Shown piece after piece: positions 1,473 through 18,600 of a stretch of DNA of 20,502 nucleotides. The notes beneath the pieces are model-generated. The model saw only the letters and a list, made by a program, of their open reading frames with translations. It had not been told where the DNA came from and ran no database searches. The stretch is from a virus. The translations under genes were made by a program, and so were the position numbers. Within the stretch, counting starts at the first letter, position 1. Each line of letters opens with the position of its first letter. The DNA lies in IMG/VR virus record IMGVR_UViG_3300032323_004092, positions 1-20,502 of that record; one strand, 5' to 3'.

Positions 1473-1990
1473 TTTAGCTCCCTAATATTGAGGTATTTAA
1501 GTGTGTTTTGCAGCATGCCTATTTGTCTGCGGCAGTCTTCCAAGGCGTGGTGAGTTGTGGGTGGTATGGGTTGGTCCGGCCACAAAGAAAACACAGTGCG
1601 GCTGTCTCGAACCATGTAGTACTTCCAAGGCAGGGGTTTGTGATAGCTCTTGTAGGCATGCTCAAGAATGTTCATGTCATAGGTAGGACCCTGTGCCCAG
1701 ATTCGCTTGGAGTGCCAAATCAGTTTACCTAGACCATCTAATGCTTCATCCAAGGGTATGCGCCCATCTTCGGCAAATGCTTCGTCACGTACCACAGCAG
1801 GCTGAGTGGCCCACCAATCAATTGTACCTTGTTCAATGCTGCGATTTTCCTGGCTTTCCAAGGTCACACGAGCATAGTAGCACTGCTCATAATGACCTGT
1901 GCCCATGGGGTCAAATGTCTGTGCAGCAATGGTAAGAATAGTGGTTTCTGGGCCTGTGCCCAGGCCTTCGAGGTCAATCATGAGGTCCAT
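1469..1990 (-). CDS. DEDDh 3'-5' exonuclease (DexA / Rv2179c-like)
   Basis: A 173-residue exonuclease of the DEDD superfamily, predicted to trim DNA or RNA 3' ends with two metal ions. Visible motifs are Exo I D6-x-E8 (MIDLEGLGT), the family-typical DWW at 58-60, Exo II D105 (TYDMNIL), a VRDSRT segment near 129, and Exo III H147...D152 (THHALEDCRR). The layout fits the T4 DexA and Rv2179c-like family; RNA versus DNA preference cannot be read. Start choice: ATG 1990 has no ribosome site, but a good promoter ends 6 bases before it, implying a leaderless message; ATG 1981 (Met4) is the alternative. It forms an operon with dNMP kinase by ATGA overlap, a sensible pairing for recycling host nucleic acid into DNA precursors. 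Confidence 0.88.
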   Translation of the reverse strand: MDLMIDLEGLGTGPETTILTIAAQTFDPMGTGHYEQCYYARVTLESQENRSIEQGTIDWWATQPAVVRDEAFAEDGRIPLDEALDGLGKLIWHSKRIWAQGPTYDMNILEHAYKSYHKPLPWKYYMVRDSRTVFSLWPDQPIPPTTHHALEDCRRQIGMLQNTLKYLNIRELK

Positions 1991-1996
1991 TTTGCT

Positions 1997-2025
1997 ATTG
2001 TAGCAAAAATGTGCTCAGTGGTCAA
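1997..2025 (-). promoter_or_regulatory. Early sigma70-type promoter of exonuclease-dNMP kinase operon
   Basis: On the reverse strand TTGACC (2025-2020) is followed by a 17-base spacer ending TGC, then TACAAT (2002-1997), an extended -10. Only 6 bases, AGCAAA, separate the -10 from ATG 1990, so the expected transcription start coincides with the start codon. A perfect 8-bp inverted repeat with a 3-base loop (1990-2008, TTTTGCTA/TAGCAAAA) straddles the -10 and could be a repressor operator. Confidence 0.78.
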
Positions 2026-2793
2026 TCAGCCAATGACCCAAGTCAGCGGTTGTGATGCATCGACGTAGTTGACCAGTTGGCCAATCAACTCGTCCTGTGC
2101 AGTTTTGCCTTCGGCTTTCATGGCAGTGCCGTTGAGTGTGCCGCCGCCCTGTGGACCTGCTATCTGTCCAAATTTTTCACGTGCTTCGCCAATGATGATC
2201 TTGCAAGTGGCCACCATGTAGTCTTTGATCCACTGTTGTATTTGAAAATCACTGAGCAGATTGATTTCTGGCTTGAGATTGTAGGTCCAGATCAGCACTG
2301 CTTCGCCGGTGTTTTTGGGGTCTCTGATCAACTGCAACTTCTTGGTCACAGGATTGAATGTGTAGTTGAAATAGCCACCAAACATTTTGGCAGCCAACTC
2401 TGTGTATTGACTGTAGAAATCGTATGTGGCCAAGCCTCCAGCCACGTTGAAATTCATGAGATAAACATTGAGCGATGCCTGAGCAAATGGATCAAAGTTT
2501 GAAGCAAACGGTCCAGTGGCGTCGCCAAATGTTCTGCGAAAGCACTGACGCACACTCACAACTTCCTGGGGCAGTGTATAGATGTTTTCGTCTTTGACCA
2601 GGGTAAAAAAGCTGTAGCTTTCTTCGTAGGCGTTGTTGGCCCGCTGGCGATATGTACCAATGGTTTTTTGATAGGCTACTTCATAGTGTGCTGGATCCAG
2701 TTCCAAATCTATGATTTGATTGCCCAGCATGAGTTGACAGTATTCGATGAGATTTTGTTTGAGTTGCGAAAGTGTGTCTTGTTGTTCAGCCAT
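2026..2793 (-). CDS. gp13: Neck protein, T4 gp13-like
   Basis: A 255-residue head-completion/neck protein, predicted to join the portal-closed head to the tail. Its start (LIEYCQLMLGNQIIDLEL, residues 15-32, then DPAHYEVAYQKTIGTYRQR) matches the T4 gp13 opening (LKxxIxxxLGxPxINVELTxxQ...ALxxY). The middle has YTLPQEVVSVRQCFRRTFG. The C-terminus, WIKDYMVATCKIIIGEAR...GPQGGGTLNG...EGKTAQDELIGQL...WVIG, parallels the gp13 ending (WVKDYAxALxKELxG...LPGGVTxDGxRL...ILVG). T4 gp13 is 309 residues. ATG 2793 is preceded by GGAG (2800-2803) and a late box at 2811-2818. A 35-base gap to the exonuclease holds that gene's early promoter, so late and early transcription units abut here. Confidence 0.85.
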   Translation of the reverse strand: MAEQQDTLSQLKQNLIEYCQLMLGNQIIDLELDPAHYEVAYQKTIGTYRQRANNAYEESYSFFTLVKDENIYTLPQEVVSVRQCFRRTFGDATGPFASNFDPFAQASLNVYLMNFNVAGGLATYDFYSQYTELAAKMFGGYFNYTFNPVTKKLQLIRDPKNTGEAVLIWTYNLKPEINLLSDFQIQQWIKDYMVATCKIIIGEAREKFGQIAGPQGGGTLNGTAMKAEGKTAQDELIGQLVNYVDASQPLTWVIG

Positions 2794-2810
2794 GAGAAGC
2801 TCCGATATGG

Positions 2811-2818
2811 TATTTATC
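2811..2818 (-). promoter_or_regulatory. T4-type late promoter box before gp13-like gene
   Basis: The reverse strand reads GATAAATACC, 17 bases before ATG 2793 with a GGAG ribosome site between. The TAA inside the box is also the stop codon of the upstream SGNH hydrolase gene, so promoter and stop are superimposed. Confidence 0.7.
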
Positions 2819-3452
2819 GGTCAAGCCCTATCCATTGAGCCAAGCGGTCAGCAATCAGCTGATGTCCCAGTTGGTTGGGATGACAAAAGTTGGGTCTGAT
2901 ATATGGATTGTCTCCTACATCCAAGAGATGCTCGCCGTTGTGTTTGCTGGCCCCAAACCAGTCAGCAGCAGTTTCTTGCCCTTGTGCCCAGATCTTGTCA
3001 AGATTCACTCCAGGCATCCAATTTTGGTATCGATTCCATCCTGCAAAGTACCAGTCCGCGATGCCCAAGTTTTGACACCAAAACTGCAAGGCACTTACAG
3101 TAGAATTATACCGCATGATTTCATTTTCAGTGCTGAATAAGTGGACAATGACTTTTTTGAGATCTTCGTGATCAGTTTGAGTGCTCATGAACAAAGGCCA
3201 TTGCACAGTGCGTCCTGGATTGGTCAAGAAAAAAATTGCAGTGGTTTGATGATTGGCCTGGTGCACTTCTTTGATGTGCCGTTGAAATTGAAACAACATG
3301 TGTTCATTGCTGGCGCCACCCATGCCGTAGTTGTACCACTGATCAAAATCATATTGCTCTTGCAAAAGATGACCATAGGCCTTGCCAGAACCCAATTCTG
3401 CGCCGCCGGGCCAACTGTCACCAAAAGTTGCAATTACTTTAATCGTATCCAC
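2814..3452 (-). CDS. SGNH/GDSL-type hydrolase
   Basis: A 212-residue SGNH-fold esterase/lipase-like protein. Block I is ATFGDSWP with the nucleophile Ser13; block II is YGMGGASNEHM (Gly45/46); block III is FFLTNP (Asn78); block V is CHPNQLGH with the base His191. The position three residues before that His, usually the catalytic Asp, is Asn188, so a Ser-His dyad or a different acid may operate. Possible substrates are acetylated or acylated surface sugars, but nothing fixes this. The start is GTG 3452, supported by AGGAG a few bases upstream, and it overlaps the radical SAM gene by 14 bases, so the two are probably co-translated. No signal peptide is visible. Several T4-like aquatic phages carry such hydrolases. 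Confidence 0.82.
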   Translation of the reverse strand: MDTIKVIATFGDSWPGGAELGSGKAYGHLLQEQYDFDQWYNYGMGGASNEHMLFQFQRHIKEVHQANHQTTAIFFLTNPGRTVQWPLFMSTQTDHEDLKKVIVHLFSTENEIMRYNSTVSALQFWCQNLGIADWYFAGWNRYQNWMPGVNLDKIWAQGQETAADWFGASKHNGEHLLDVGDNPYIRPNFCHPNQLGHQLIADRLAQWIGLDR

Positions 3453-4404
3453 TCACGGCTCCTGATTTTTTACTCACTGCAAACAGTTTGTTCATTTGAA
3501 ATTGACTGCTCACCGGGCAAAATTTACATTGGGGTATCACATTGCCAAGATTCCCTAAAAATTCTTGGCCACGACTATAAAACTCATCCACTGTCAAGGG
3601 TCTATAGCCGTTGATTGTCTGTCGATCTTGATCAGAAATATCAAACTGATGTTGTTGATCAAATTCTGGAAACAAGGCCACCGGAGCGCACTTGTACAAT
3701 TTGCCATGCGCAAAATGATGGCAGTTGTACCGCACAAACCCGCAGCCGCTGTGAGCCTCGTTGGGGTCATTGTCGAACAACACAAATCGTCCCGATTGAC
3801 TTCTTTGCACAGCAGCGGTATAGAAATCTTGATATTCCCATACACAAATTTTCACACCATTGCTGTCAACAAAAGCATGATCGCCGCCCATGGTGTAAGC
3901 ATTGTTTACGTTTCGTGAATCATCTTTGTGTATGTAATCCACAGGTCCTTTGAGAAACTGTTTAATGGTTTCAAAACAACGATCGCGATCATTGGCATTG
4001 TGCAGGCTTACCCCAATCCAATTTCTTATACTGGCATTTTCTGAGTCAAATGAACGAGTCAATTTATCATACAACCCAGGCACATGGTTTAACCTAGTGC
4101 CATTGGTCAATATTTGCACCGATTTGTTCCATATGCCATTGATTCCATCTATCCAGTCTAAGATTGTGGGATTCAACAAAGGTTCGCCACCCATGATGGT
4201 GATGCGTTGCAGTCGTATGCGTTGGCCCCATTGTTGGTATACATCGGCATAATCTGCCCAACGCTGCCATCCACTGAAATTGTGGTTGTTGAAACGGTTG
4301 CAATTTGAACAGGTCAAATTGCACACATTGGTGATGTAAAATTCGATGTTGGGCACAAAACGACGAGGATCGCTGGGATCCTCGTCTATGATATTGGGTC
4401 TCAC
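3439..4404 (-). CDS. Radical SAM protein with C-terminal cysteine cluster
   Basis: A 321-residue radical S-adenosylmethionine enzyme. C28-x3-C32-x2-C35 would hold the catalytic [4Fe-4S] cluster, followed by GGEP at 72-75 (SAM amino-group binding) and TNG at 100-102. Further cysteines at 187, 221, 228, 239, 293 and 296 resemble the SPASM/Twitch auxiliary-cluster regions of peptide- and protein-modifying members, so it may install a radical modification on a protein or peptide. The substrate is unknown. The start is taken as GTG 4404, the first plausible start, seven bases after the preceding gene's stop; GAGG abuts the GTG unusually closely, so the start is uncertain. It overlaps the SGNH gene by 14 bases. 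I found no clear promoter of its own. Confidence 0.85.
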   Translation of the reverse strand: MRPNIIDEDPSDPRRFVPNIEFYITNVCNLTCSNCNRFNNHNFSGWQRWADYADVYQQWGQRIRLQRITIMGGEPLLNPTILDWIDGINGIWNKSVQILTNGTRLNHVPGLYDKLTRSFDSENASIRNWIGVSLHNANDRDRCFETIKQFLKGPVDYIHKDDSRNVNNAYTMGGDHAFVDSNGVKICVWEYQDFYTAAVQRSQSGRFVLFDNDPNEAHSGCGFVRYNCHHFAHGKLYKCAPVALFPEFDQQHQFDISDQDRQTINGYRPLTVDEFYSRGQEFLGNLGNVIPQCKFCPVSSQFQMNKLFAVSKKSGAVSGYD

Positions 4405-4411
4405 CCTCTAT

Positions 4412-5548
4412 TTACCAACTCTTGAGAATGACCAGTGTATCTGTGCCACGACCATTCCATGCAGTCTCTGTGGCACGAATTTCTTTGAAGGCTTTGCGAG
4501 CTGCTGGTTTGCCTGCTGTGGTAATGCTCTTGAGCTGTTCTGCGGGCTTGCGCAGAGTTTTTTGCACAGTTTCCACAGTGGAGAATCCAATGATGGAGTT
4601 GTTTTTCACAGTGAATGCCTGTGCATGACTGTCGGCCACCAAGTGTATGAGCTTGCGCTTCTTGGTGTCGTAAAGCCAGGCTTCGCTCTTGTCCACCAGT
4701 TGAGCTGCTGGTAAGCTACGAAGTTTGAGTTCAGCAAACTCAGTCTGAATTTTGAACTTGGCCGCACGTTTTTCTGGCGTGACAGGCTTGACCTTGCGAG
4801 GCTTGCGTTCCACTTTCTTGATCTGTACATAGGCACCACAATCACTGATTACCAACTCACAGAACTTCGCACAGTTCTTGAGCTGTGTTTTGGTAAGGTG
4901 GCTGTAAGCCTGTGCAATCTGCGGGTCTTCGCCGGCCACTGCCTGATCAAATTCAGTCAAGCGACGAGTCCAATGATCACGAATCATGCTGGTCAGCTGC
5001 GGAGCAATGTTCATACTGCGCATGAGACTTACAGGTTTGTAGTCGGCTGTCAGCTTGGCACCTGCTGTGACAAACTCATCAAACATGCCTTCCATTTCGC
5101 CTAAGCACTCAGACACTTTTTCTCGCAAGCGATCTTGAATGGTCAAGCGGTTGGTGGGGTCAGGTTCCGCTATTGCGGTCTGCTGGGCAGGCTGTTCTCG
5201 ATGAGCCAAAATTTCGCTGATCATATTGTCTAGTTTGATCTGCTCGTGTTTATCCAAATTCAAACCCATGTCTGCCATGCGACACAGCCAGCCAGGAGTG
5301 AGCCGTATTTGACTGTCGGGTGTGGCTCTGATTTGTCGAGCATCACGCACACGTTCACGACGATCCAAATAGCCGGCAATGAAATCTTTGGCTTCTTTTT
5401 TGCCGTAGAAGTAGCCATACCAGTTGAATGCCCTTGTAAGCACAGCAAATCGGTTGTGTGTGGGTTGTTCGCGCCACAGCGGCTCGTCACCTACGTATTT
5501 GGTATCAGCACTACGAGGATTCAAAGGTTTGAGAACAGCAGTTTTCAT
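4412..5548 (-). CDS. Conserved phage-type protein of unknown function (378 aa)
   Basis: I do not recognise a functional family. The protein is soluble, with no membrane segment or signal peptide. It starts MKTAVLKPLNPRSADTKYVG, has a helical, charged middle, a very basic stretch around residues 255-275 (KKVERKPRKVKPVTPEKRAAKF), and an end of about 70 residues reading LYDTKKRKLIHLVADS, TVKNNSIIGF and DTLVILKSW. The basic segment suggests nucleic-acid or phosphate contact, but that is inference. ATG 5548 was chosen over the upstream in-frame start at 5587 because AGGAG lies 6 bases before it and a strong early promoter ends at 5573, which an upstream start would place inside the gene. Similar uncharacterised proteins occur in T4-like aquatic phages, as far as I recall. 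Confidence 0.75.
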   Translation of the reverse strand: MKTAVLKPLNPRSADTKYVGDEPLWREQPTHNRFAVLTRAFNWYGYFYGKKEAKDFIAGYLDRRERVRDARQIRATPDSQIRLTPGWLCRMADMGLNLDKHEQIKLDNMISEILAHREQPAQQTAIAEPDPTNRLTIQDRLREKVSECLGEMEGMFDEFVTAGAKLTADYKPVSLMRSMNIAPQLTSMIRDHWTRRLTEFDQAVAGEDPQIAQAYSHLTKTQLKNCAKFCELVISDCGAYVQIKKVERKPRKVKPVTPEKRAAKFKIQTEFAELKLRSLPAAQLVDKSEAWLYDTKKRKLIHLVADSHAQAFTVKNNSIIGFSTVETVQKTLRKPAEQLKSITTAGKPAARKAFKEIRATETAWNGRGTDTLVILKSW

Positions 5549-5572
5549 TGAGTCTCCTGATGGCAAACAGTA

Positions 5573-5601
5573 ATTATAGCAAATCAAGCAATTTTGGTCA
5601 A
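5573..5601 (-). promoter_or_regulatory. Early sigma70-type promoter, extended -10
   Basis: The reverse strand has TTGACC (5601-5596), a 17-base spacer ending TGC, and a perfect TATAAT (5578-5573). It drives the 378-residue gene with a short leader of about 18 bases containing the AGGAG ribosome site. The -35 and spacer lie inside the 3' end of the preceding gene. A second TTGACT overlaps five bases further upstream, but its spacing is too long. Confidence 0.85.
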
Positions 5602-5862
5602 GTCAAGTGAAAGCATTACCAAAGTGAGGTCTGCCTCATTGCGGAATGTGATCCAGTAAGTTTTGCGGTCAGAGTGTCCATTGGCAGCGCCAAAATAGCC
5701 GCACCAGTCGGCCTGGCGATCGTATCCAGGGCCGCCCAGACGTTGCCTTACAAATTGTTCAACCTTGCTGGCTTGCGCACTGTAGCCAGGAAAACGTATG
5801 GCCACAGTGTGCCCGTTTTCTCTGAACTGCTTGAATCTGCGGTTGAGTTTGACCACTTTCAT
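5584..5862 (-). CDS. Small protein of unknown function (92 aa)
   Basis: An unrecognised, basic, probably globular protein. It begins MKVVKLNRRFKQFRENGHTV and contains RQRLGGPGYDRQADWCGYFG and RKTYWITFRNEADLTLVMLSL, an alternating pattern that suggests an alpha/beta fold. The start is the ATG at 5862; a TTG two codons upstream is in frame but lies between the -10 element and the ATG. There is no ribosome site, and the promoter places transcription start at the ATG, so it may be translated from a leaderless message. Its early-type promoter suggests expression soon after infection, perhaps as a host-modifying factor; no homology supports a specific role. Confidence 0.7.
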   Translation of the reverse strand: MKVVKLNRRFKQFRENGHTVAIRFPGYSAQASKVEQFVRQRLGGPGYDRQADWCGYFGAANGHSDRKTYWITFRNEADLTLVMLSLDLTKIA

Positions 5863-5868
5863 TGCCAA

Positions 5869-5897
5869 ATTGTAGCAGCATTGGATTTATTAGTCAA
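5869..5897 (-). promoter_or_regulatory. Early sigma70-type promoter, predicted leaderless start
   Basis: The reverse strand has TTGACT (5897-5892), a 17-base spacer ending TGC, and TACAAT (5874-5869). Six bases (TTGGCA) separate it from ATG 5862, the same geometry as the exonuclease promoter. It occupies nearly half of the 56-base divergent region between the 92-residue gene and the gp14-like gene. Confidence 0.78.
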
Positions 5898-5903
5898 CCT
5901 GCC

Positions 5904-5911
5904 CATAAATA
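5904..5911 (+). promoter_or_regulatory. T4-type late promoter box before gp14-like gene
   Basis: The plus strand reads CATAAATACTTG, ending only 7 bases before ATG 5919. That would also put the transcription start close to the ATG, unlike the other late boxes in the window, which leave 17-24 bases. It lies back to back with the early promoter at 5869-5897, giving a compact early/late divergent switch. Confidence 0.62.
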
Positions 5912-5918
5912 CTTGACC

Positions 5919-7277
5919 ATGCCACGTTTAAGCCTATACCGCCCAAATCGAACTCGCGATTACCAATTTTTGGACCGAACTATAAGTGAGATGTATACAG
6001 TTGGTGGCTTAGATATATTTTGCCACAAGTATCTGGGCCCGCAAACCGGTGGCGAAGATTCAGCATTTAGTGGCAATTTTGATGCCACGCAGCCCATTTA
6101 CGAAGATCAGAGTCCGCTGAACATTCAAGACTTGCTGTTGCTGGAAAACCGTGACAGAGTATACGCTCCCGACATTTATGTCATGCGTGGTGTATACCGT
6201 ACTCAAGATGTAGATTTTGACCTTACGCAGTTTGGCTTGTTTTTGAACTCTGATACCCTGTTTATTACTTTTCATTACAACGACATGATTGATACCCTGG
6301 GTCGCAAGCTCATGAACGGCGACGTCATTGAAGTGCCTAACCTTAAAGATTACAATCCTTTGAATGCGGCGCTGCCCTTGGCCTTGCCCAGATACTATGT
6401 GATACAGGATGCCAATTTTGCTTCTGAAGGCTTTAGCCAAACATGGTTGCCACACCTATGGCGTGTGAAAGCCACACCATTGACCAACGCACAAGAATAC
6501 AACAACATTTTAAACAAACCCTTTGTGGCTGAATATATTTGGGATCCCAGCGATTTTTACCCCATGGGCAGTGTGGTTAACTACGGCGATGTGTATTACA
6601 GAGCCATACAGAATGTGCCTGCTGGCACTGAGATCAACAATACAAACTACTGGACACTGTATACGCCGCCCACTATATCTGACATGCAGAGCACCAGGCC
6701 CAAAGATCAGCAAATCAATGACGACATCTTGACCCAAGCTGACGTAGAAGTTCCTCTCAGCGGGTATGACGTAGAAAAATTTTACATTGTGGCCACCACA
6801 GACGGTGGTCAGCCGGCCAACCCCAACAGTCTCACTGTTAGCGGCAACACCACTGTAGACGGCACACAAGGAGGCATGAATGTTACGCCTAAATCAGATG
6901 GCTATACCATGGGCTATCTCACAGGAGATGGCAAGGCACCCAATGGCTTGCCTGTGATTCCGGGCGTGGCTTTTCCCGCCAATCCTGCTTCGGGCGATTA
7001 CTGCCTGCGCTTGGACTACAAGCCCAATAGACTGTTTAGATATGACGGACGTCGATGGATCAAGATTGAAGAAAAAGTACGCACCAATTTGAACAATGCA
7101 CCAAGCAATCAAACTCAGCGCTCAGGCTTTGTGAACAATACATACACTACCAATACCACTGACTTGGGTGCTATACCACAGCGCCAAAGCTTGAGTCAAG
7201 CTCTCAAACCCAAAGCAGACAATGGTGATCAAGGCGGATTCTTGCCACCCAACCCACCACCACCTTTTTCGAGATAA
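5919..7277 (+). CDS. Virion structural protein, probable gp14-like neck protein with extra domains
   Basis: A 452-residue virion protein. The N-terminus (RPNRTRDYQFLDRTISEMY, VGGLDIFCHKYLGP) and the stretch FDLTQFGLFLNSDTLFITFH...GRKLMNGDVIEVP...WRVKATPL match in order the T4 gp14 neck protein (HGxDxxYxPR; SKFGL; RPxxGDLIYFP; ...FKVxxEL). The match is by pattern only, so gp14 is likely but unproven. Around residues 207-245 is an aromatic segment (YPMGSVVNYGDVYYRAIQN...YWTLY) resembling family 5/12 carbohydrate-binding modules. After residue 340 comes LRLDYKPNRLFRYDGRRW, a tail-protein motif, and a Pro-rich end (PPNPPPPFSR). ATG 5919 was chosen over 5862 because the family opening starts there. 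gp15 follows after 2 bases, supporting a neck/tail completion role. Confidence 0.6.
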   Translation: MPRLSLYRPNRTRDYQFLDRTISEMYTVGGLDIFCHKYLGPQTGGEDSAFSGNFDATQPIYEDQSPLNIQDLLLLENRDRVYAPDIYVMRGVYRTQDVDFDLTQFGLFLNSDTLFITFHYNDMIDTLGRKLMNGDVIEVPNLKDYNPLNAALPLALPRYYVIQDANFASEGFSQTWLPHLWRVKATPLTNAQEYNNILNKPFVAEYIWDPSDFYPMGSVVNYGDVYYRAIQNVPAGTEINNTNYWTLYTPPTISDMQSTRPKDQQINDDILTQADVEVPLSGYDVEKFYIVATTDGGQPANPNSLTVSGNTTVDGTQGGMNVTPKSDGYTMGYLTGDGKAPNGLPVIPGVAFPANPASGDYCLRLDYKPNRLFRYDGRRWIKIEEKVRTNLNNAPSNQTQRSGFVNNTYTTNTTDLGAIPQRQSLSQALKPKADNGDQGGFLPPNPPPPFSR

Positions 7278-8698: not shown

Positions 8699-9120
8699 AA
8701 GCAGTAGGTGTTTGGTTTTTGGCTCGTGAAACTGGGCGCTACCTTTACCTGCTGCGCAACGACCCCAAACATCCAGGCACATGGGGCCTGCCTGGAGGCA
8801 AAGTTGAGCCTGGCGAAACACTGCTTGGTGGTATGGAACGAGAATGCGTGGAAGAACTGGGACATTTTCCACAATACCGCAGACTAATTCCTCTCGAAAA
8901 ATTTACATCAGCTGACAATGTATTTGAATATCACACTTGGGTTTGTGTGCTGGATCACGAGTTTGTGCCCATACTTAACGACGAGCATGTTGGTTATGCC
9001 TGGATCAATGCTGGCACATGGCCTAGGCCCATGCACCCAGGACTGTGGAACACAGTGAATATTGACACTGTACAACAAAAACTGGCCAGTGTGGAGAGCA
9101 CAGAGTTGGCTAGTTTATAG
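8680..9120 (+). CDS. Nudix hydrolase
   Basis: It hydrolyses a nucleoside diphosphate linked to another moiety, with Mg2+ bound by the Nudix box. The box is complete at residues 40-62: G-x5-E-x7-R-E-C-V-E-E-L-G-H. Upstream lie AVGVWFLARETGRYLYLLRN and GTWGLPGG, the family's usual first strands. The 146-residue length is normal for a single-domain Nudix protein. Possible roles are cleaning oxidised nucleotides, ADP-ribose turnover or mRNA decapping like T4 NudE; substrate cannot be assigned. ATG 8680 was chosen because the fold starts right after it. A longer in-frame start at 8626 lies deep in gp15 and has no ribosome site. The stop codon directly abuts that of the convergent giant fibre gene (TTA|TAG at 9115-9120). 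Confidence 0.88.
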   Translation: MEPGTVKAVGVWFLARETGRYLYLLRNDPKHPGTWGLPGGKVEPGETLLGGMERECVEELGHFPQYRRLIPLEKFTSADNVFEYHTWVCVLDHEFVPILNDEHVGYAWINAGTWPRPMHPGLWNTVNIDTVQQKLASVESTELASL

Positions 9121-12100
9121 TCTGCCAACCACAACTTCAATAATTCCTGATTCTCCGGTGAAGTTTTCCAAAGCTTTGCCAATCACAGAGCCCATGGCTG
9201 GTGTAGCACAGGCCTGTGCAGCACCATTGCCTGCTGACACCATCATGTCGCCTTTGCGCACATTGCCCACCACAGATGTTGGCACACGACCAGTCAACGC
9301 CACAATAGCTACATTGGGTGCATTGAGTCCTGCATTCATCACATGAGCAGGATTGGTAGAAACTACGCCAGCAATTCTTGTGTCTCCAATTTCAGTGGCC
9401 CGAGTCACTTCATCTGATCCGCCAAACACCAACACAGTGCCCGGAGCATAGGTAGCATCACTTGCATATTCTTCTGCCAAGTCAGCATACCGTGCGGTAG
9501 TAGCAGTTGCAGTAATAACGTTAGCCGTAAAGTTTCCACTTGCATCACGTGCAACAATTGCACCAGCTGTGTTGGCTGATGTAGCTGTTGATCCCAGAGT
9601 GATAGCACCAGTTGATGCATTGACTGTGATTCCGCCACCACCTGTCAGACTCAATACACCAGTGTTGGTAATAGTAACACCTGTGCTGCCGTTGTAGCTG
9701 GTACCGCCTAGGCCTGTGCCAATAGTGAGTGTACCTGTAGCTGTGGCTGTTACGGTACCTGATCCGCCTAGAGCAATTGAAACACCGTTAACTGTCAAAG
9801 ACGCATTGGCCAAACGTGCTTGTGCCAGTGTACCTGATGAGATGTTTGTGGCATTGATGCCGGTAACGTTAGCGCCTGATCCGTTGAGCGTACCAATGAA
9901 GTTGCCTGAAGTTGTATTACCAGTCACTGCCAAACTACTCAGTGTACCCACAGATGTAATATTGGGCTGTGACGCACTGGTTACTGTGGCAGCAGTGCCT
10001 GCTGATCCTGTGACACTGATTGACCAGGTGCCCGATGCACCAGCACCACCAGTACTAGGCGCACCCACAGAGTTGTAACTTATTGTTCTAGCTGTTCCGC
10101 CATTGAACTGTGTGCCACTGGCATCACCACTGCCAGCATTGCTAAAAGTCAGTGCCGCAGGAGTACTTGCGGTAATAGTAACCGAACCACCCAGTGATAT
10201 TGCAATACCATTGACTGTGACAGCACTGTTGGCCAAAGCACCATTGGGTATTGATGTCAACCCAGCACCTGATCCATTGAATTGTGATCCAGTGATTTGA
10301 CCAGTGGCAGATATCAAGCCAGCAGTACGCAAGTTACCACCATCAATGTTGCCAGACACACTCAAACTACTGAGTATGCCCACAGATGTAATGTTGGGTT
10401 GTGCAGCAGTGGTCACAGTGCCTGCTGATGTAGCAAAAGTAGCATTGGCCACGGTACCAGTGACATTGCCACCTGGGATGGATGTCAGTCCTGCACCTGA
10501 TCCATTGAACTGACTACCAGTGACTTGACCAGTGGCAGATATCAAGCCAGCAGTACGTAGGTTGCCGCCATCGATGTTGCTGGTAACAGAAACCGTGGTG
10601 CCTGTGTGCGTGGTAGCATTGACGTTTGCACCACCCAATATGTTGCCACCTGTAATGTTACCAGTTGCTGAAACTTGTCCAACAGTGCGTAAATTACCGC
10701 CATCGATGTTGCCAGACACACTCAAACTGGTCAATGTACCCAATGAAGTAATATTGGTTTGAGCTGCTGTACCAATGGTACCAAAGTAAGTAGATGCTGT
10801 GATATTGCCACTGGCACTCATGCGACCAATGTTTACATTGCCAGTGCCGTTGGGCGTGAGCACAATATTGGCATTGGTTGCTGTGGTTTGAATGTCAAGT
10901 TGTGCTGAATCTAAGATTGCTCCACTTAGCAATATGTTGCCAGCAGTGATATTGCCAGTGCTCACTGACAAATTACCACCAGTGATGTTGCCTGTCGCAC
11001 TGACCTGACCACTAGTTAAAATATTTCCACCAGTGACGTTACCTGTGGCTGATACTCCTGCTGCTGTGTTGACATTACCAGCAGCACTAACTTGTCCAGC
11101 GGTTAAGATATTGCCACCTGTGATGTTGGCAGTGGCAGATACCTGACCAGCGGTGCGTAAGTTGCCGCCATCAATGTTGCCAGTGGCAGTGACCAATCCA
11201 GCGGTGCGTAAGTTGCCGCCATCAATGTTGCCAGTGGCAGTGACCAATCCAGCGGTACTCAAGTTACCACCAATGACGTTCCCTACCGCAGTGACCAATC
11301 CAGTGGTGGTTAAATTGCCGCCCAGCACATTGGCAGTGGTAATGATATTGCTAGTATTGGTACCAGATGCCAAATAGCTGGCAACCTGAGCATTAGAATA
11401 ACCTGCTGGCAGACCAGTGAGTTGGCTACCATTGCCTAATATAAACGCAGCAGACACATTGCCTGAAGTCGACACTGCTCCTGTGCTCAACAAATTGCCA
11501 CCATTGACGTTGCCTGACACAGACAACGAACCCAGTGTGCCAACAGCCGTAATTTGAGTCTGGCTAGAATTTACAGAAAAAGTGGTGCCAGTGAGTGTGA
11601 GCCCAGTGCCTGCGGTATATGTGCCAGCACCAGAAAACTGAGTAAATGCAATGTTGTTGCCAGCTAGACCAATATTAGATACTGAAGTAGTTTGTACCCA
11701 ACCAGTGTTGGCATAAGTGGCACCTAACTCTACAAACATAAAATCGCCAGCCTCAACTTCTGGCGGCGTATCATAATCTGTAGCTCTGGTAATAACTGTG
11801 GCATTGCTCCACACATACACACCGTTGGTCACAGCATTGGCTTCGTTGAATACCAAAATTCTGGTGCCAGCCACCTGTACATTCACTGTGTCAATAAGAT
11901 TAAACGAACCAGTTGTGGCCAACGTGGCTCCAATACCGTTGGTACCGTTGTTGTAGGTAATGGTACCACCGCTGATATTGGCCAAAGTGTTAGGAGTGGC
12001 AACTTTGACTGCATCATGAATGTTCAATCCGCTGACAAAATTGTCTACATATGATTTGTTGACTGCATCGCCTTCTTGCACTGGCGATGGAACATTGTTG

Positions 12101-15100
12101 ATATACCGGTCTTTGACATCAATATTGCCAGTGGCACTCAACACTATATTACCAGTGGATACTAACGTCAGTTCTGTACCTGTAATTCGATTGGTATTGA
12201 CATTGCCACCAGACAAATTGCCTGTAGCTGACACTTGACCAGGTGTTGTAACATTGCCAGCTGCTACATTGCCAGAGGCAGACACTTGCCCAGGTGTGCT
12301 AACATTGCCAGCAGCCACATTGCCAGTTGCACTAACTTGACCAGGTGTTGTGACATTGCCAGCTGCAATATTGCCGCCTGCTGATACTTGTCCAGATGAG
12401 CTAATATTACCAGCAGCAACATTAGCAGGTGTTGTGACATTGCCAGTTGCACTAACTTGTCCTGGTGTTGTGACGTTGCCAGCTACAACATTGGCTGTTG
12501 CGCTGAATGTGGTTGCAGTTATGACATTGGCGCCAGTGATGTTGCCACCTGATCCACTGGTTGAAATGTTTCCACCAGTGATGTTGCCTGTGGCCGAAAT
12601 CAAACCACCTGTGATCAAGTTACCTGATGTGGTATTACCTGTTACTGTAAGTGCAGTCAGTGTACCAACACTTGTGATATTGGGCTGTGCGTTTGTGGTC
12701 ACGGTGGCAGCGGTTGTAGCTGATGCTACAGTACCTGTGACGTTGGCACCTGGGATACTTGTCAGGCCTGCACCAGACCCAAAATATGTTGCGGCTGTGA
12801 TGTTTCCTGACGCACTAACACGCCCAACGTTGACGTTACCTGTGCCATTGGGTGTAAGCACAATGTTGGCGTTGGCAGCTGAGGTCTGTATATCCAACTG
12901 AGTCGAATCAATGATAGCACCACTCAATATCAGGTTACCACCAGTGATGTTGCCTGTGCTCACAGTCAAACTGGTACCAGTTATGTTTGCACCTGTAACA
13001 CCACCAGCTGCTGAAATCAAACCACCTGTCAGCAGGTTTCCGCCAGTTATATTGCCTGAGACTGAAACTGTGGTGCCAGTCAAGTTACCAACATGGGTAC
13101 CAATAATGTTGCCGCCAGTAATGTTGCCAGTGGCTGATACGCCTGATGCTGTGTTGACATTGCCTGTAGCTGTTATTAATCCAGCAGTGTTAATGTTTCC
13201 ACCATTAATGTTACCAGTAGCAGTGACCAACCCAGCTGTGTTAATGTTACCACCAGTGATGTTACCAGTAGCAGACACACCTGATGCTGTGTTCACATTG
13301 CCAGTGGCAGTGACCAATCCAGCTGTTCTTAAATTACCACCATCAATGTTGCCAGTGGCAGTGATCAAACCAGTTGTTCTTAAATTGCCAGCCTGAACAT
13401 TTCCAGTGGCTGACACACCTGCTGCTGTGTTTACATTACCAGTGGCACTGACTTGTCCAGGAGTGTTGACATTACCAGCAGTTGCATTGCCAGTGGCACT
13501 GACCAATCCAGTTGTTCTTAAATTACCACCATCAATGTTGCCAGTGGCACTGATCAAGCCAGTTGAGCTCAGTGTACTCCCTGTGATTGTGGTGCCAGTG
13601 ATAGTACCAGCAGCAGATACCAAACCACCTGTGAGCAAATTACCAGTTGTGGTATTACCAGTTACGCTCAATGATGCAAGTGTTCCAACACTGACTGCTT
13701 GAACTCCTGTGAGCTGGCTGCCGTTACCAAGGAAAAAGTTACCAGAAATGTTGCCAGTGGCAGTGATCAATCCAGCAGTGGCGACATTACCGCCTGTGAT
13801 ATTGCCTGTGGCAGTGACCGTAGTACCTTGTACCAGTGCTGCACTGATCAAGTTACCACCATCAATGTTACCTGACACACTCACTGTGGTACCAGTCAAA
13901 CTGGTTGCGTTGACATTGGCTCCACCTAGGATGTTGCCGCCGGTGATGTTGCCAGTGGTGCTGATATTGCCAGTGCCCACAATGCCCACAGTGTTGACAT
14001 TGCCAGTTGAGCTCAATGTGGAACCAGTTATTGCAGCACCGGTGATGTTACCAGCAGCTGATACCAGTCCAGCGGTAACCAAATTAGCACCTGATATGTT
14101 GCCAGTAGCGCTCAAACTACTACCTGTTATTGTTCCAGCAGCAGATATTGCCGCATTTGAGTTAAGGTTGCCAGCAATCAAATTGCCATTCAATGATGCT
14201 CCACCAGAAACTGACACTGACAATGAAGAAGTATCAACTATGGTTAAGTTTAACGCTTGTAATCTTCCATTGGTGGTAATATTACCAGCACTTGCGTTGG
14301 CAAGAATAGCCAAGTTGCCACCAGAAATGTTACCAGTTGCAGAAATCAAACCAGCTGTGGTTACGTTGCCGCTTACAACATTGCCAGTTACCGAAACAGT
14401 GGTACCTGTGTGAGTGGTTGCGTTGACATTGGCTCCACCTAGGATATTGCCGCCAGTTATGTTGCCTGCTGCTGAAATCAATCCACCTGTTAGCAGATTG
14501 CCACCAGTAACGTTGCCAGTCACTGATACAGTGTTGCCCACACTGGTAACCACTGGCACACCATCAACTAACAGACTGGTTGATGTTGCACTGAGAGTTA
14601 CATTACCTAAAAATATACTGCTGTTGGACAACCACAGATCATTGAATCGTTTATCGGACTGACCCAAATCGTAAGTGATATTGGCAGTGGGCACAATGTT
14701 GCCCGTAACATTCACGTTAGCTGCATTAATGTTGCCAGACACACTGGCCAATCCATTTAGATACAGACCAGCTGTTGCAAAAACTGCAACGTTTGATGTG
14801 CCAGCCACACTGACGTTTGCATTGCCATTGGCAGTTTGAATTTCTATTGATGTGGTACCGTTGATGATTCTATCACCAACAATGTTGCCACTCAGCGATG
14901 CATTACCAGTTACAGTAAGATCACCGTTGATCACTGCACTGTTGGCAGTGATGTTATTGGCTCCTACATTTCCTGTAGTAACAAACGCACCATTGGAAAT
15001 CAAGTTACCGCCAGTTATGTTGCCTGCTGCTGACAAAATGCCAGACAATGAAATATTTGAACCAGTTATGTTACCAGTGTTTGATATTCCACTTTGGCTT

Positions 15101-15180
15101 AGATCTAAAAAGTCGCCAGCTGGCAACTCGTTTATTGTATTTGCGGCTGCATTTGCTATCAGTGGGAAAAAATTTGCCAT
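9115..15180 (-). CDS. Giant Gly-Asn-repeat fibre protein with conserved C-terminal domain
   Basis: A fibre-type virion protein of about 2020 residues. It opens MANFFPLIANAAANTINELP; around 150-200 is ITYDLGQSDKRFNDLWLSNS...LGNVTLS, a motif common in aquatic phage fibres. Most of the protein is Gly-Asn repeat (ATGNITGGNLxTxGLVS) with a 17-residue period, interrupted by GNGSQLTG / GSGAGLTSIP motifs and by a duplicated LDIQTTATNANIVLTPNGTGNV block. About 1025-1195 is a non-repeat domain (VNKSYVD...GTRILVFNEA...NGVYVWSNATVITRA...WVQTT) found in phage tail proteins. The last ~125 residues (YADLAEEYASDATYAPGTVLVFGG...VAIVALTGRVPTSVVG) form a conserved tip-like domain, candidate receptor-binding or assembly/chaperone element. 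AGGATGG precedes ATG 15180; a late box lies 18 bases upstream. Its exact structural role is inferred. Confidence 0.8.
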   Translation of the reverse strand: MANFFPLIANAAANTINELPAGDFLDLSQSGISNTGNITGSNISLSGILSAAGNITGGNLISNGAFVTTGNVGANNITANSAVINGDLTVTGNASLSGNIVGDRIINGTTSIEIQTANGNANVSVAGTSNVAVFATAGLYLNGLASVSGNINAANVNVTGNIVPTANITYDLGQSDKRFNDLWLSNSSIFLGNVTLSATSTSLLVDGVPVVTSVGNTVSVTGNVTGGNLLTGGLISAAGNITGGNILGGANVNATTHTGTTVSVTGNVVSGNVTTAGLISATGNISGGNLAILANASAGNITTNGRLQALNLTIVDTSSLSVSVSGGASLNGNLIAGNLNSNAAISAAGTITGSSLSATGNISGANLVTAGLVSAAGNITGAAITGSTLSSTGNVNTVGIVGTGNISTTGNITGGNILGGANVNATSLTGTTVSVSGNIDGGNLISAALVQGTTVTATGNITGGNVATAGLITATGNISGNFFLGNGSQLTGVQAVSVGTLASLSVTGNTTTGNLLTGGLVSAAGTITGTTITGSTLSSTGLISATGNIDGGNLRTTGLVSATGNATAGNVNTPGQVSATGNVNTAAGVSATGNVQAGNLRTTGLITATGNIDGGNLRTAGLVTATGNVNTASGVSATGNITGGNINTAGLVTATGNINGGNINTAGLITATGNVNTASGVSATGNITGGNIIGTHVGNLTGTTVSVSGNITGGNLLTGGLISAAGGVTGANITGTSLTVSTGNITGGNLILSGAIIDSTQLDIQTSAANANIVLTPNGTGNVNVGRVSASGNITAATYFGSGAGLTSIPGANVTGTVASATTAATVTTNAQPNITSVGTLTALTVTGNTTSGNLITGGLISATGNITGGNISTSGSGGNITGANVITATTFSATANVVAGNVTTPGQVSATGNVTTPANVAAGNISSSGQVSAGGNIAAGNVTTPGQVSATGNVAAGNVSTPGQVSASGNVAAGNVTTPGQVSATGNLSGGNVNTNRITGTELTLVSTGNIVLSATGNIDVKDRYINNVPSPVQEGDAVNKSYVDNFVSGLNIHDAVKVATPNTLANISGGTITYNNGTNGIGATLATTGSFNLIDTVNVQVAGTRILVFNEANAVTNGVYVWSNATVITRATDYDTPPEVEAGDFMFVELGATYANTGWVQTTSVSNIGLAGNNIAFTQFSGAGTYTAGTGLTLTGTTFSVNSSQTQITAVGTLGSLSVSGNVNGGNLLSTGAVSTSGNVSAAFILGNGSQLTGLPAGYSNAQVASYLASGTNTSNIITTANVLGGNLTTTGLVTAVGNVIGGNLSTAGLVTATGNIDGGNLRTAGLVTATGNIDGGNLRTAGQVSATANITGGNILTAGQVSAAGNVNTAAGVSATGNVTGGNILTSGQVSATGNITGGNLSVSTGNITAGNILLSGAILDSAQLDIQTTATNANIVLTPNGTGNVNIGRMSASGNITASTYFGTIGTAAQTNITSLGTLTSLSVSGNIDGGNLRTVGQVSATGNITGGNILGGANVNATTHTGTTVSVTSNIDGGNLRTAGLISATGQVTGSQFNGSGAGLTSIPGGNVTGTVANATFATSAGTVTTAAQPNITSVGILSSLSVSGNIDGGNLRTAGLISATGQITGSQFNGSGAGLTSIPNGALANSAVTVNGIAISLGGSVTITASTPAALTFSNAGSGDASGTQFNGGTARTISYNSVGAPSTGGAGASGTWSISVTGSAGTAATVTSASQPNITSVGTLSSLAVTGNTTSGNFIGTLNGSGANVTGINATNISSGTLAQARLANASLTVNGVSIALGGSGTVTATATGTLTIGTGLGGTSYNGSTGVTITNTGVLSLTGGGGITVNASTGAITLGSTATSANTAGAIVARDASGNFTANVITATATTARYADLAEEYASDATYAPGTVLVFGGSDEVTRATEIGDTRIAGVVSTNPAHVMNAGLNAPNVAIVALTGRVPTSVVGNVRKGDMMVSAGNGAAQACATPAMGSVIGKALENFTGESGIIEVVVGRL
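11147..11248 (-). repeat. Perfect 51-bp tandem duplication inside the giant fibre gene
   Basis: Two copies of a 51-base unit (11147-11197 and 11198-11248) are identical by my base-by-base reading. A third, degenerate copy follows from 11249. The unit encodes one 17-residue turn of the Gly-Asn repeat. Exact identity, including wobble positions, indicates a recent duplication against a background of older diverged units. Confidence 0.85.
12232..12435 (-). repeat. Four-unit 51-bp repeat array inside the giant fibre gene
   Basis: Units begin at 12232, 12283, 12334 and 12385, exactly 51 bases apart, each containing (plus strand) a CTTGnCCAG-like start and ACATTGCCAGC-like centre. Translated on the minus strand they give GQVSATGNVAAGNVTTP-type 17-mers with a conserved Pro. 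The units differ mainly at silent or conservative positions. Confidence 0.8.
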
Positions 15181-15669: not shown

Positions 15670-18600
15670 TTAATAGAGTCCACCGTCTACAGTACTTGCA
15701 GTGTCTAAAACTTGATTTGGTCCTTGAAAAACGTTTCCTCCAGTAATGTTGCCAGTGCCACTAACAATTCCTACACCAAATAACACATTGCCAACATTGG
15801 CATTGGCAGCAATTAAGTTGCCACCTGTGATGTTGCCAGTGGCACTGATCAACCCAGTGGTCAAAAAGTTTGCAGCAGCAATGTTGCCTGTTGCACTGAA
15901 TGTACCGCCAGTGGTAATGTTACCAGCTGTGACATTACCACTGGCACTGATATTAGCCGCAGTGTTAATGTTGCCGGTGGCAGTGATTAAGCCAGCAGTT
16001 GTGATGTTACCACCAATGACATTTCCAGTGGCCGAAATTTCACCAAGGGCTCTAATATTGTTTGCGGCAGCAATGTTGCCGGGTGCCTGAAACTCACCGC
16101 TATTGGTACCAAAAGTAAATTGATAATTAGCCCCGTTGGGGTCGGTCATTATCCTAAAATCTGGAGTTGCGGCAATAGTCGGGGTTGAAAACCCTCCTCC
16201 AGATATCTGCAACCAGACGTTGCCGTTGCTGTACGCAAATCCTAGACTATTTGGCGTTACAGTTCCAATGTTTGCAATATCCGTTGCAACAAGTATCGAG
16301 CTGGTAATACCTCCAGCTGTGACATTGCCAGCTGCTGAGATCAAACCTGCAGTTTCAATGTTTCCGGCCGTGACATTGCCAGTTGCACTTATTGTACCAC
16401 CAGTTGAAACATTACCAACTGTGGCCGTACCAGTGGCGCTGATAGCACCAGCAGTAGAAATATTGCCGCCGGCAATGTTGGCAGCACTGGTAATGTTACC
16501 TGTGGCTGAAATCAATCCGCCAGTGTTAACATTGCCGCCAATCACGTTGCCTGTGGTACTGATAAAACCAGCGCCTGCATCAACATTGCCAGCTGTGACA
16601 GTGCCTGTCACACTCAAACTGGTTCCAGTTGCAGCACCAATGTTTGGTGTGGTAAGATTTGCACTGGCTTTGACAACAATGTTACCACCGCCGTCAAATG
16701 CAGTGGTAGTGTTGTCAACTTTGGCGTTGAAAGTTTGCGCAACTAAGCTCAGACCAGCATTGGTGTTGGCTGAGTAAATTTGAGCTTGACTAAACTGAGC
16801 AAATTGAATGTTTGATGTGCCAAATGTGATAACTCCTGTTGGAGCGTCAACCACATATGCACTGCCTAGATTTACATTACCACTGCTTACAAAGAAATAA
16901 TTGTTTAGACTAAATTGGTCGTCACCAGGACCATATGTGTCTGTATCAGAACTTCTTGTGATTACTGTGGCATTTGACCATACATAAACACCATTGTATA
17001 CTGCATTGGCTTCGTTCTTGACCAAGATACGTGTGCCCACTGTTTGAACATTGGCTGAGTCAATGATATTGAACGAGCCAGTGGTGGTCAATGTAGCACC
17101 TATGCCGTTGGCAACACCATTGGGTTGAGCATAGGTAATGGTACCGCCAGTTGTAGTGGCCAAATTGGCTGTGGTAGCCACAAACACAGCTTCGTGGTAA
17201 GCCAAAGCTGTGGAACTCATGATATCTACATAATATTTGCTGGCAGCATCAGCATCTTGCTGAGGAGTCAACTGCAAACCATTGATATAGGTATTAGCAA
17301 GAACAACGTTACCAGATCCGTTAGGGTACAAGTTAATGTTGCCATTGGCCTGTGACTCAAAAGTTAGATCAGCAGTTTTACCAACAATGTTGGCAGTGAA
17401 CAGTTTTGTACCAACGTTGACATTGCCACCATCCACATTGCCACTGGCTGACACTGTGGTTGCGGACATCGTAGCAGCAGCCACAGTGGCAGTGGTAGTG
17501 ATGTTAGACGTGGTGTTGATGGGGCTAATGACATTGCCACTGAGACTCAAAATTCCTGTGTTGACGTTGCCGCTGGTCAAATTACCTGTGGCAGAAATTG
17601 CTCCGCCAGTCAACAAGTTACCACCAGTTACGTTGCCAGAAGCACTGACCACTGTGGAAGTAACAGAATTGGTAGCACTGAGATTGTTGGCAGCTAGGTT
17701 ACCAGAGGTACTCACTGTGCCAGTAGTAATCAAATTACCACCAGTGATGTTGGCAGTGGTAGTGATGTTTGATGTAGTGTTGATGTTACTGATTACGTTA
17801 CCACTGAGGCTCAAAATGCCTGTGTTGACATTGCCACCTGTAATATTACCAGCAGCTGATACTAATCCACCAGTGATTACATTGCCACCGGTGATGTTGC
17901 CAGATGCACTAACTACTGCGGAAGTCACAGAGTTAGTTGCACTGAGATTGTTGGCTGACAAATTGCCAGTTGTTGCAACTGTGCCAGATGTTATTAAGTT
18001 ACCACCTGAAATATTAGCGGTGGTAGTGATATTTGAAGTTGAATTGATATCACTGACAACATTGCCACTCAAGCTCAATCTAGTGGCATTGAGGTTTCCG
18101 CTGATGGTGTTACCACTCACTGACAAGCTGGTCAATGTGCCAACTGATGTAAGACTTGAGTTAAGTACGTTGGCGCTGAGTGTGTTGCCTATTAAATTGT
18201 TGGCATCAACACTGCTGGCTGTTACACCTGTGAGCTGTGAGCCATTACCAATGAAATAATTTCCTGTAATGTTGCCTGCGGCAGACATTATACCTGCTGT
18301 GGTCACATTGCCAGCAATTACGTTGGCAGACGCTGACAATGTGGTAGCTGAAATAACATTGGCACCAGTGATGTTGCCGCTTGCCCCTGAAGTTGTAAAG
18401 TTGGCAGCAGTGATATTGCCGCTGGCACTGACTGCGCCAGCGTTGACATTGCCAGTGACTGAAGTTGTACCAGTCACTGCCAGCACATTAGTTGCGCTGT
18501 TAAAAGTCAAATTGGCGCTGGCAGCAAACCCGCCTGAACCATTATTGAACTGAATCTGAGTGTTAGAACCTGCAGGTTGTTGGAAATCCCAAGGTGTGCC

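Follow-up and report, generated by a model that had tools for sequence, protein, structure and literature searches.

The Locus and Its Three sigma70-Type Promoters

The stretch of DNA considered here, referred to as the window, comprises positions 1 to 20,502 of the IMG/VR virus record IMGVR_UViG_3300032323_004092. This 20.5-kb piece of a T4-like phage genome encodes a gp15-type tail sheath stabiliser, a head-tail adaptor, a virion structural protein, a dNMP kinase and an exonuclease. The subject of this work is the placement of promoters relative to start codons in this phage and its relatives: some genes lie so close to their promoters that their messages are predicted to be leaderless, while others carry a leader with a Shine–Dalgarno (SD) sequence. 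The T4-like assignment derives from T4-type structural proteins, namely the T4-gp15 tail sheath stabiliser in the window (Pfam PF16724, E = 6.7e-24) and gp23 (PF07068) in three related contigs. No near relative of the window was found among 50,697 phage records. In IMG/VR close relatives abound, and the window is a member of a large uncultured group of aquatic T4-like phages. Judged by the major capsid protein encoded on a related contig, the nearest isolates are the jumbo T4-like phages PA5oct, Vibrio 2.275.O and Sinorhizobium Phosso (65–66% identity); by the tail sheath stabiliser, jumbo T4-like phages are again the nearest, at 28–36% identity.

A preliminary description of this DNA had pointed to three near-identical promoters on the minus strand, and this was correct to the base. 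Each consists of TTGAC(C/T), a 17-base spacer ending in TGC, and TA(C/T)AAT. A search with the exact pattern TTGAC-N15-TGC-TANAAT returned three zero-mismatch matches, all on the minus strand (1997–2025, 5573–5601 and 5869–5897); allowing up to two mismatches still yielded only these three (0 forward, 3 reverse), and the pattern read backwards gave 3 forward and 0 reverse matches. About 0.001 exact matches would be expected by chance on both strands of 20.5 kb for some 13 specified bases, a figure calculated for a motif defined post hoc. The sites conform to the sigma70 extended -10 class (TTGACa, 16–18 bp, TGn TATAAT), for which the reversed control pattern occurs at most once per contig.

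The first of them (1997–2025, minus; TTGACC-N17-TACAAT) precedes the gene for a 173-residue 3'-5' exonuclease of the Rv2179c/RNase AS-like, DexA type (1469–1990, minus; start MDLMIDLE; PF16473, E = 8.8e-33; PHROG 255, exonuclease), and the sequence between them reads TACAAT-AGCAAA-ATG, with the ATG at 1990. Another (5869–5897, minus; TTGACT-N17-TACAAT) serves the gene for a 92-residue protein (5584–5862, minus; MKVVKLNR...), which has no match in Pfam or PHROG or among isolate phages; here the arrangement is TACAAT-TTGGCA-ATG, with the ATG at 5862. In both cases exactly six bases separate the -10 box from the ATG and there is no SD, as the preliminary description had stated, and both genes are predicted to be leaderless. 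The remaining promoter (5573–5601, minus; TTGACC-N17-TATAAT) lies before the gene for a 378-residue conserved protein of PHROG 11903 (4412–5548, minus), with 24 bases between the -10 box and the ATG at 5548 and the previously noted AGGAG within them, and it thus provides a built-in control with an ordinary leadered message.

Late Promoters with the Same Geometry

The pattern had in fact been understated, since two T4-type late boxes in the window lie 4 and 7 bases from the ATGs of the genes at 506 and 5919. The box CATAAATA (5904–5911, plus) ends 7 nt before the ATG of the gene for a virion structural protein (5919–7277, plus; MPRLSLYRPNR; PHROG 11591), which is divergent from the 92-residue gene, and this divergent pair is kept upstream of many homologues. 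In the MPRLS family, 63 distinct sites have a late box at 4–8 nt, and the same spacing class is found in eight contigs. The interval 5862–5919 therefore holds, within 56 bp between two ATGs, a sigma70-type and a T4-late-type promoter placed back to back, both with predicted leaderless starts. The second late-type box, GGTAAATA (494–501, plus), is a one-base variant of ATAAATA and is found 4 nt before the ATG of a gene for a 114-residue protein with a Cys/His-rich motif and no Pfam match (506–850, plus; MRPLC...); homologues of this MRPxC family have NATAAATA at 4–5 nt in five contigs. Both late-type genes are predicted to be leaderless or nearly so.

Leadered counterparts exist for this promoter class as well. 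The head-tail adaptor gene has ATAAATA (2811–2817, minus) 17 nt before its ATG at 2793, with the SD GGAG, and the MALxSPGVxVTVIDE gene, by resemblance a probable tail sheath gene, has it (435–441, minus) 24 nt before its ATG at 410, with the SD AAGGA. In this group, TATAAATA-like octamers lie upstream of structural genes, as in T4-type late promoters. The preliminary description had tied leaderless starts to early promoters, a label that refers here to sigma70-type sequence only; the tie is not exclusive, because T4-type late promoters show the same geometry.

Conservation of the Spacing and the Start Codon

The arrangement was followed in distinct homologues drawn from about 220 IMG/VR loci. 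In the exonuclease family the -10 box lies 5–6 bases from the ATG in 91 of 94 homologues, an SD is found in none of the 94, and all 94 start with ATG. Likewise, the box is 5–7 bases away in 57 of 58 homologues of the 92-residue gene, with SD in 0/58 and an ATG start in 58/58, so that the spacing is fixed across about 150 distinct members of both families. The 378-residue gene, under a near-identical promoter, has an SD in 82 of 83 homologues. Where the exonuclease carries an extra residue (MADLM or MSHLM), the promoter is shifted together with the start codon.

A geometry of this kind could also arise if the annotated ATGs were wrong and SD-led downstream starts were used instead. This idea draws on the exonuclease, whose codon 4 or 5 is a conserved Met, and on a few early genes with an in-frame SD plus ATG 24 nt further on. 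The internal exonuclease ATG, however, lacks an SD, and codons 2–3 of this gene change in a mostly synonymous or conservative manner: Leu is encoded by TTG, CTG, TTA, CTC or CTA, Asp by GAC or GAT, and His and Ala by two codons each. Since the variation is mostly synonymous, these codons are probably translated. As for the 92-residue protein, its next in-frame Met is found only at residue 83, which leaves no usable second start. A downstream in-frame start, which the preliminary description had itself named as a way in which it could fail, is thus impossible for the 92-residue gene and unlikely for the exonuclease. Overall, a mis-annotated start appears highly improbable, and the comparative evidence points to the annotated ATGs as the true translation starts of both genes.

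Two Separate Spacing Classes in Related Contigs

The motif scan near ATGs of related phages that the preliminary description had proposed was carried out on eight related long contigs (1.35 Mb in total, 80–340 kb each, joined from pieces), and it revealed a separate mode at 5–7 bases. When the distance from each strict sigma70 promoter to the nearest ATG opening a reading frame was recorded, 36 promoters fell at 5–7 bases, 30 of these being exactly 6 bases away. No distance from 8 to 18 had more than one promoter, and about 80 promoters lay at 12–45 bases, mostly at 19–36. SD sequences were absent from all 37 close cases (0–8 nt) and present in 70 of the 80 at 12–45. For the sigma70-type promoters, the excess at 5–7 nt over the 8–18-nt background corresponds to a Poisson P of about 1e-30, a statistic that ignores the kinship of the contigs. 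The late boxes (ATAAATA) behaved in the same way, with 48 at 4–7 bases and none at 9–14, the rest being leadered, mostly with an SD. The close peak disappears when out-of-frame ATGs of the same genes are used in place of the in-frame ones. The genes of the close sigma70-type class combine a -10 box ending 5–8 nt before the start codon with the lack of an SD, both of which are features of leaderless genes.

Whether a start is leaderless or leadered is linked to the gene family. Among the 51 families found at least twice, 36 were uniformly of one kind; 17.5 would be expected, and none of 5000 label shuffles exceeded 29. Always leaderless in at least three contigs were the exonuclease, the 92-residue protein, a 166-residue protein (MRILTLDN), the 161-residue MTRKL family, the MRPxC family (position 506 of the window) and a 343-residue UV-damage-endonuclease-like protein (MTTxxRFGFCCKW), and the structural MPRLS family (position 5919) was leaderless in almost all cases. 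In contrast, the MALxSPGV family (seven contigs) and the head-tail adaptor (five contigs) were always leadered.

Specificity among Phages

The close class is absent from six control phages, namely T4, phiM12, Atu_ph07, PA5oct, Vibrio 2.275.O (jumbo) and Cr30. Full sigma70 promoters at exactly 6 bases number 0 in these six phages versus 39 in the window's group, and late boxes at 4–8 bases number 0–2 per control phage versus 40; the strict leaderless pattern gave no match in eight control genomes. A general property of T4-like phages was accordingly rejected. The idea that the trait belongs to alphaproteobacterial phages, which came from distant homologues of the 378-residue protein in Sinorhizobium, Caulobacter and Rhizobium phages, is not supported either, as phiM12, Cr30 and Atu_ph07 lack the close class.

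An IMG/VR sample not picked by gene allowed a wider view. Among the matches listed, an ATG placed 6 bases after TTGAC-N15-TGCTATAAT opened at least 50 codons in 73 of 115 cases, compared with 10 of 64 among the listed matches of a control in which the ATG lay 10 bases after the same pattern. From this difference it follows that the leaderless arrangement extends beyond the window's group among aquatic phages. The wider cases include proteins resembling GIY-YIG nucleases and a thymidylate synthase. Exact matches, reversed controls, spacing statistics and these reading-frame fractions together led to the rejection of a chance motif; one isolate-like match (L452), from a cyanophage whose ATG opens no long reading frame, was itself set aside as a chance match. 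As a separate observation, small GIY-YIG-nuclease-like proteins (..DRTHIVY..YIGIT..) with predicted leaderless starts recur in many IMG/VR contigs (L428, L451, L453, L458, L474 and others).

The Predicted 5' End of the Close-Class Messages

The sequence around the expected start point offers some insight into the exact 5' end. In leadered early promoters, bases 6–9 after the -10 box are mostly Y-W-T-R (CATA in 16, CTTA in 8 and TATA in 5 of 52). This region stands at the distance of the leaderless ATG and is independent of any start codon, so the ATG may be regarded as one realisation of W-T-R. The consensus leaves the first base unfixed, and a start two bases upstream would be possible.

Along these lines, transcription might begin 1–3 nt ahead of the ATG. 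The 5' untranslated region would then be very short and lack an SD, and initiation would be the same in practice. Purine counts speak for this near-leaderless alternative, since 43 of 52 leadered promoters have a purine as base 5 after the -10 box and 27 of 45 leaderless ones have one at -2; the late spacings of 6–7 nt also suggest one or two extra bases. The tight peak at 6 does not favour it, and a Y at -1 (38 of 45) followed by A at +1 also matches the usual start-site preference; we consider it somewhat unlikely. Comparative evidence, that is, the fixed spacing, the separate genome-wide mode, its absence from six control phages and its restriction to certain families, strongly supports the leaderless starts proposed in the preliminary description, while the placement of the transcription start precisely on the A of the ATG holds only to within 2 nt, the limit of what can be resolved.

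A Model with Two Kinds of Messages

All these observations could be integrated by assuming that this phage group makes two kinds of messages, leaderless and SD-led, from both promoter classes, a reading to which we assign a probability of roughly 85%. In the proposed model, host-type (sigma70 extended -10) and T4-type late promoters would be placed at conserved, gene-specific sites, such that transcription of the close class starts at the A of the ATG or at most about two bases from it and yields messages with neither leader nor SD; for the other genes, the same promoters would be followed by a leader of roughly 10–25 nt carrying AGGAG. Leaderless mRNAs are known to bind ribosomes, often the whole 70S particle, through their 5'-terminal AUG, with less need for SD pairing (PMC9031893). 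By analogy, the phage leaderless messages would be started at the 5'-terminal AUG, often by 70S ribosomes, with less dependence on SD and 30S. The 70S route and the bypass of initiation control proposed in the preliminary description likewise borrow from this general literature. A gene would gain in this way a compact promoter and a translation mode whose response to the cell's condition might differ.

Several points weigh against this model. The 5' ends are deduced from sequence, which cannot separate a leader of 0 nt from one of 1–2 nt, and position -2 is often a purine as well; late boxes lie anywhere from 4 to 7 bases away; several early families include both leaderless and leadered members; the gene calls are simple calls of open reading frames; and the contigs are related, so that counts are not independent events. 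In addition, a few ATGs classed as leaderless are followed 24 nt on by an in-frame, SD-led ATG (the MFSKKEPTMGYK type), and some of the cases counted as leaderless may be SD-led or use both starts. Such early genes, with a 5'-terminal ATG and a possible double start (MFSKKEPTMGYK, MLSKKEIQMRH), were observed in G002, G006 and other related contigs.

A simpler account would be that of compaction only, in which the promoter is squeezed into a minimal intergenic space and the loss of the leader is a tolerated side effect, with no regulated mode. Indeed, the upstream stop codon lies nearer in leaderless than in leadered early genes (median distances of 35 and 73 bp), which fits compaction, and it directly adjoins the -35 box at many exonuclease loci. 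However, the status is kept within gene families, which fits function, leaderless starts occur in divergent regions too, and phage contigs of 200–340 kb do not suggest extreme size pressure. We place this account only slightly short of an even chance.

Possible Contributions of the Host and of Phage bS21

A phage-encoded ribosomal protein bS21 is found in five of the eight contigs (G002, G003, G006, G008 and G009; L374–L377), with a C-terminus of the type LPKKLY or LPRKLY, which we take to look betaproteobacterial; no phage-encoded IF3 was found in the eight contigs. The three contigs scanned for tRNA genes carry arrays of 30 (L227), 33 (L251) and 12 (L259) genes, and L227 also gave a tmRNA call that is doubtful and has an unusual tag. 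That bS21 has any bearing on leaderless initiation is speculative. Building on this idea, one may imagine in this T4-like jumbo lineage a two-mode translation programme, in which a fixed set of leaderless genes, served by both promoter types, would be translated where SD-led genes are not, be it in certain conditions or on ribosome forms that phage bS21 might have altered, with some early genes carrying both kinds of AUG; we regard such a programme as unlikely.

The phage bS21 is closest (about 58% identity) to a subset of Pseudomonadota genomes, and the practice might be inherited from the host, whose lineage would use leaderless mRNAs at the same spacing. In favour of this, G231, a pseudomonadotal genome with 45% GC like the phages and with a bS21 among the closest, shows a TANAAT peak at 6 nt, with 12 boxes in 400 kb before in-frame ATGs and none before out-of-frame ones, and G321 peaks at 6–7 nt, while the GC-matched control genome G211 has no peak. 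Transcription start maps also report leaderless mRNAs in Burkholderia cenocepacia (PMC4603805) and Cupriavidus (PMC7563307). On the other hand, the bS21 link is weak at 58% identity. Exact TATAAT-N6-ATG matches in G231 and G321 do not outnumber those of the reversed control, and across 30 bacterial genomes they showed no clear excess over it. Moreover, leaderless starts are also predicted at T4-type late promoters, which belong to the phage itself. An inherited host practice is therefore a lead, not a result, and we hold it tentatively, at somewhat less than even odds. In a GTDB scan aimed at the host, one 3.4-kb contig turned up in a Legionella bin of metagenome-assembled sequences and was regarded as binning noise. 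As an observation in its own right, the compact 45–46% GC Pseudomonadota G231 (L378–L397) and G321 (L408–L417) have the TANAAT peak at 6–7 nt before in-frame ATGs of ychF-, mpl-, ribE- and rpe-like genes, which are candidate leaderless housekeeping genes.

The window holds other features apart from these subjects. A radical SAM protein gene (3439–4404, minus; PF04055, E = 1.4e-10) lies between structural genes, and two very large open reading frames of 2021 and 1335 residues (9115–15180 and 15670–19677, minus) probably encode fibre or baseplate proteins.

Comparison with Known Leaderless Systems

Leaderless translation is usually regarded as a trait of certain bacteria and a handful of phage genes, and most earlier phage cases are, to our knowledge, single genes such as lambda cI. 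A T4-like lineage that is abundant in aquatic metagenomes, and in which the same genes are leaderless over a large divergence, would offer a natural system for asking why genes lack leaders, with SD-led neighbours under near-identical promoters as built-in controls. It would also make testable whether phages exploit 70S or SD-independent initiation, and gene callers based on SD may misplace or miss leaderless starts.

The genes described here share with the leaderless mRNAs of Caulobacter, Mycobacterium, Streptomyces and Deinococcus (PMC4117421, PMC4633059, PMC9031893) and with lambda cI a -10 box about 6 nt before the AUG, the lack of an SD and an AUG start. They differ in belonging to a T4-like group, in involving many genes and both sigma70-type and late promoters, and in standing alongside SD-led genes; they are known from sequence only, whereas the earlier phage cases have RNA evidence. 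Cluster O mycobacteriophages (the Corndog group, PMC4351075) have leaderless SigA-type promoters that are likewise predicted, but their actinobacterial host is rich in leaderless genes, only three predicted promoters were so described, and there is no late-promoter counterpart. T4 has the same late octamer, TATAAATA, upstream of structural genes, although in-frame ATGs with ATAAATA 4–8 nt ahead of them number 0 in T4 and 40 in the window's group. Among the related jumbo T4-like phages, PA5oct, Atu_ph07 and Vibrio 2.275.O lack a close class, Atu_ph07 having 60 sigma70-type promoters at 19–33 nt, and Phosso was scanned with the strict pattern only. As far as the open-access literature shows, the arrangement described here is a new, lineage-wide variant of the known leaderless phenomenon.

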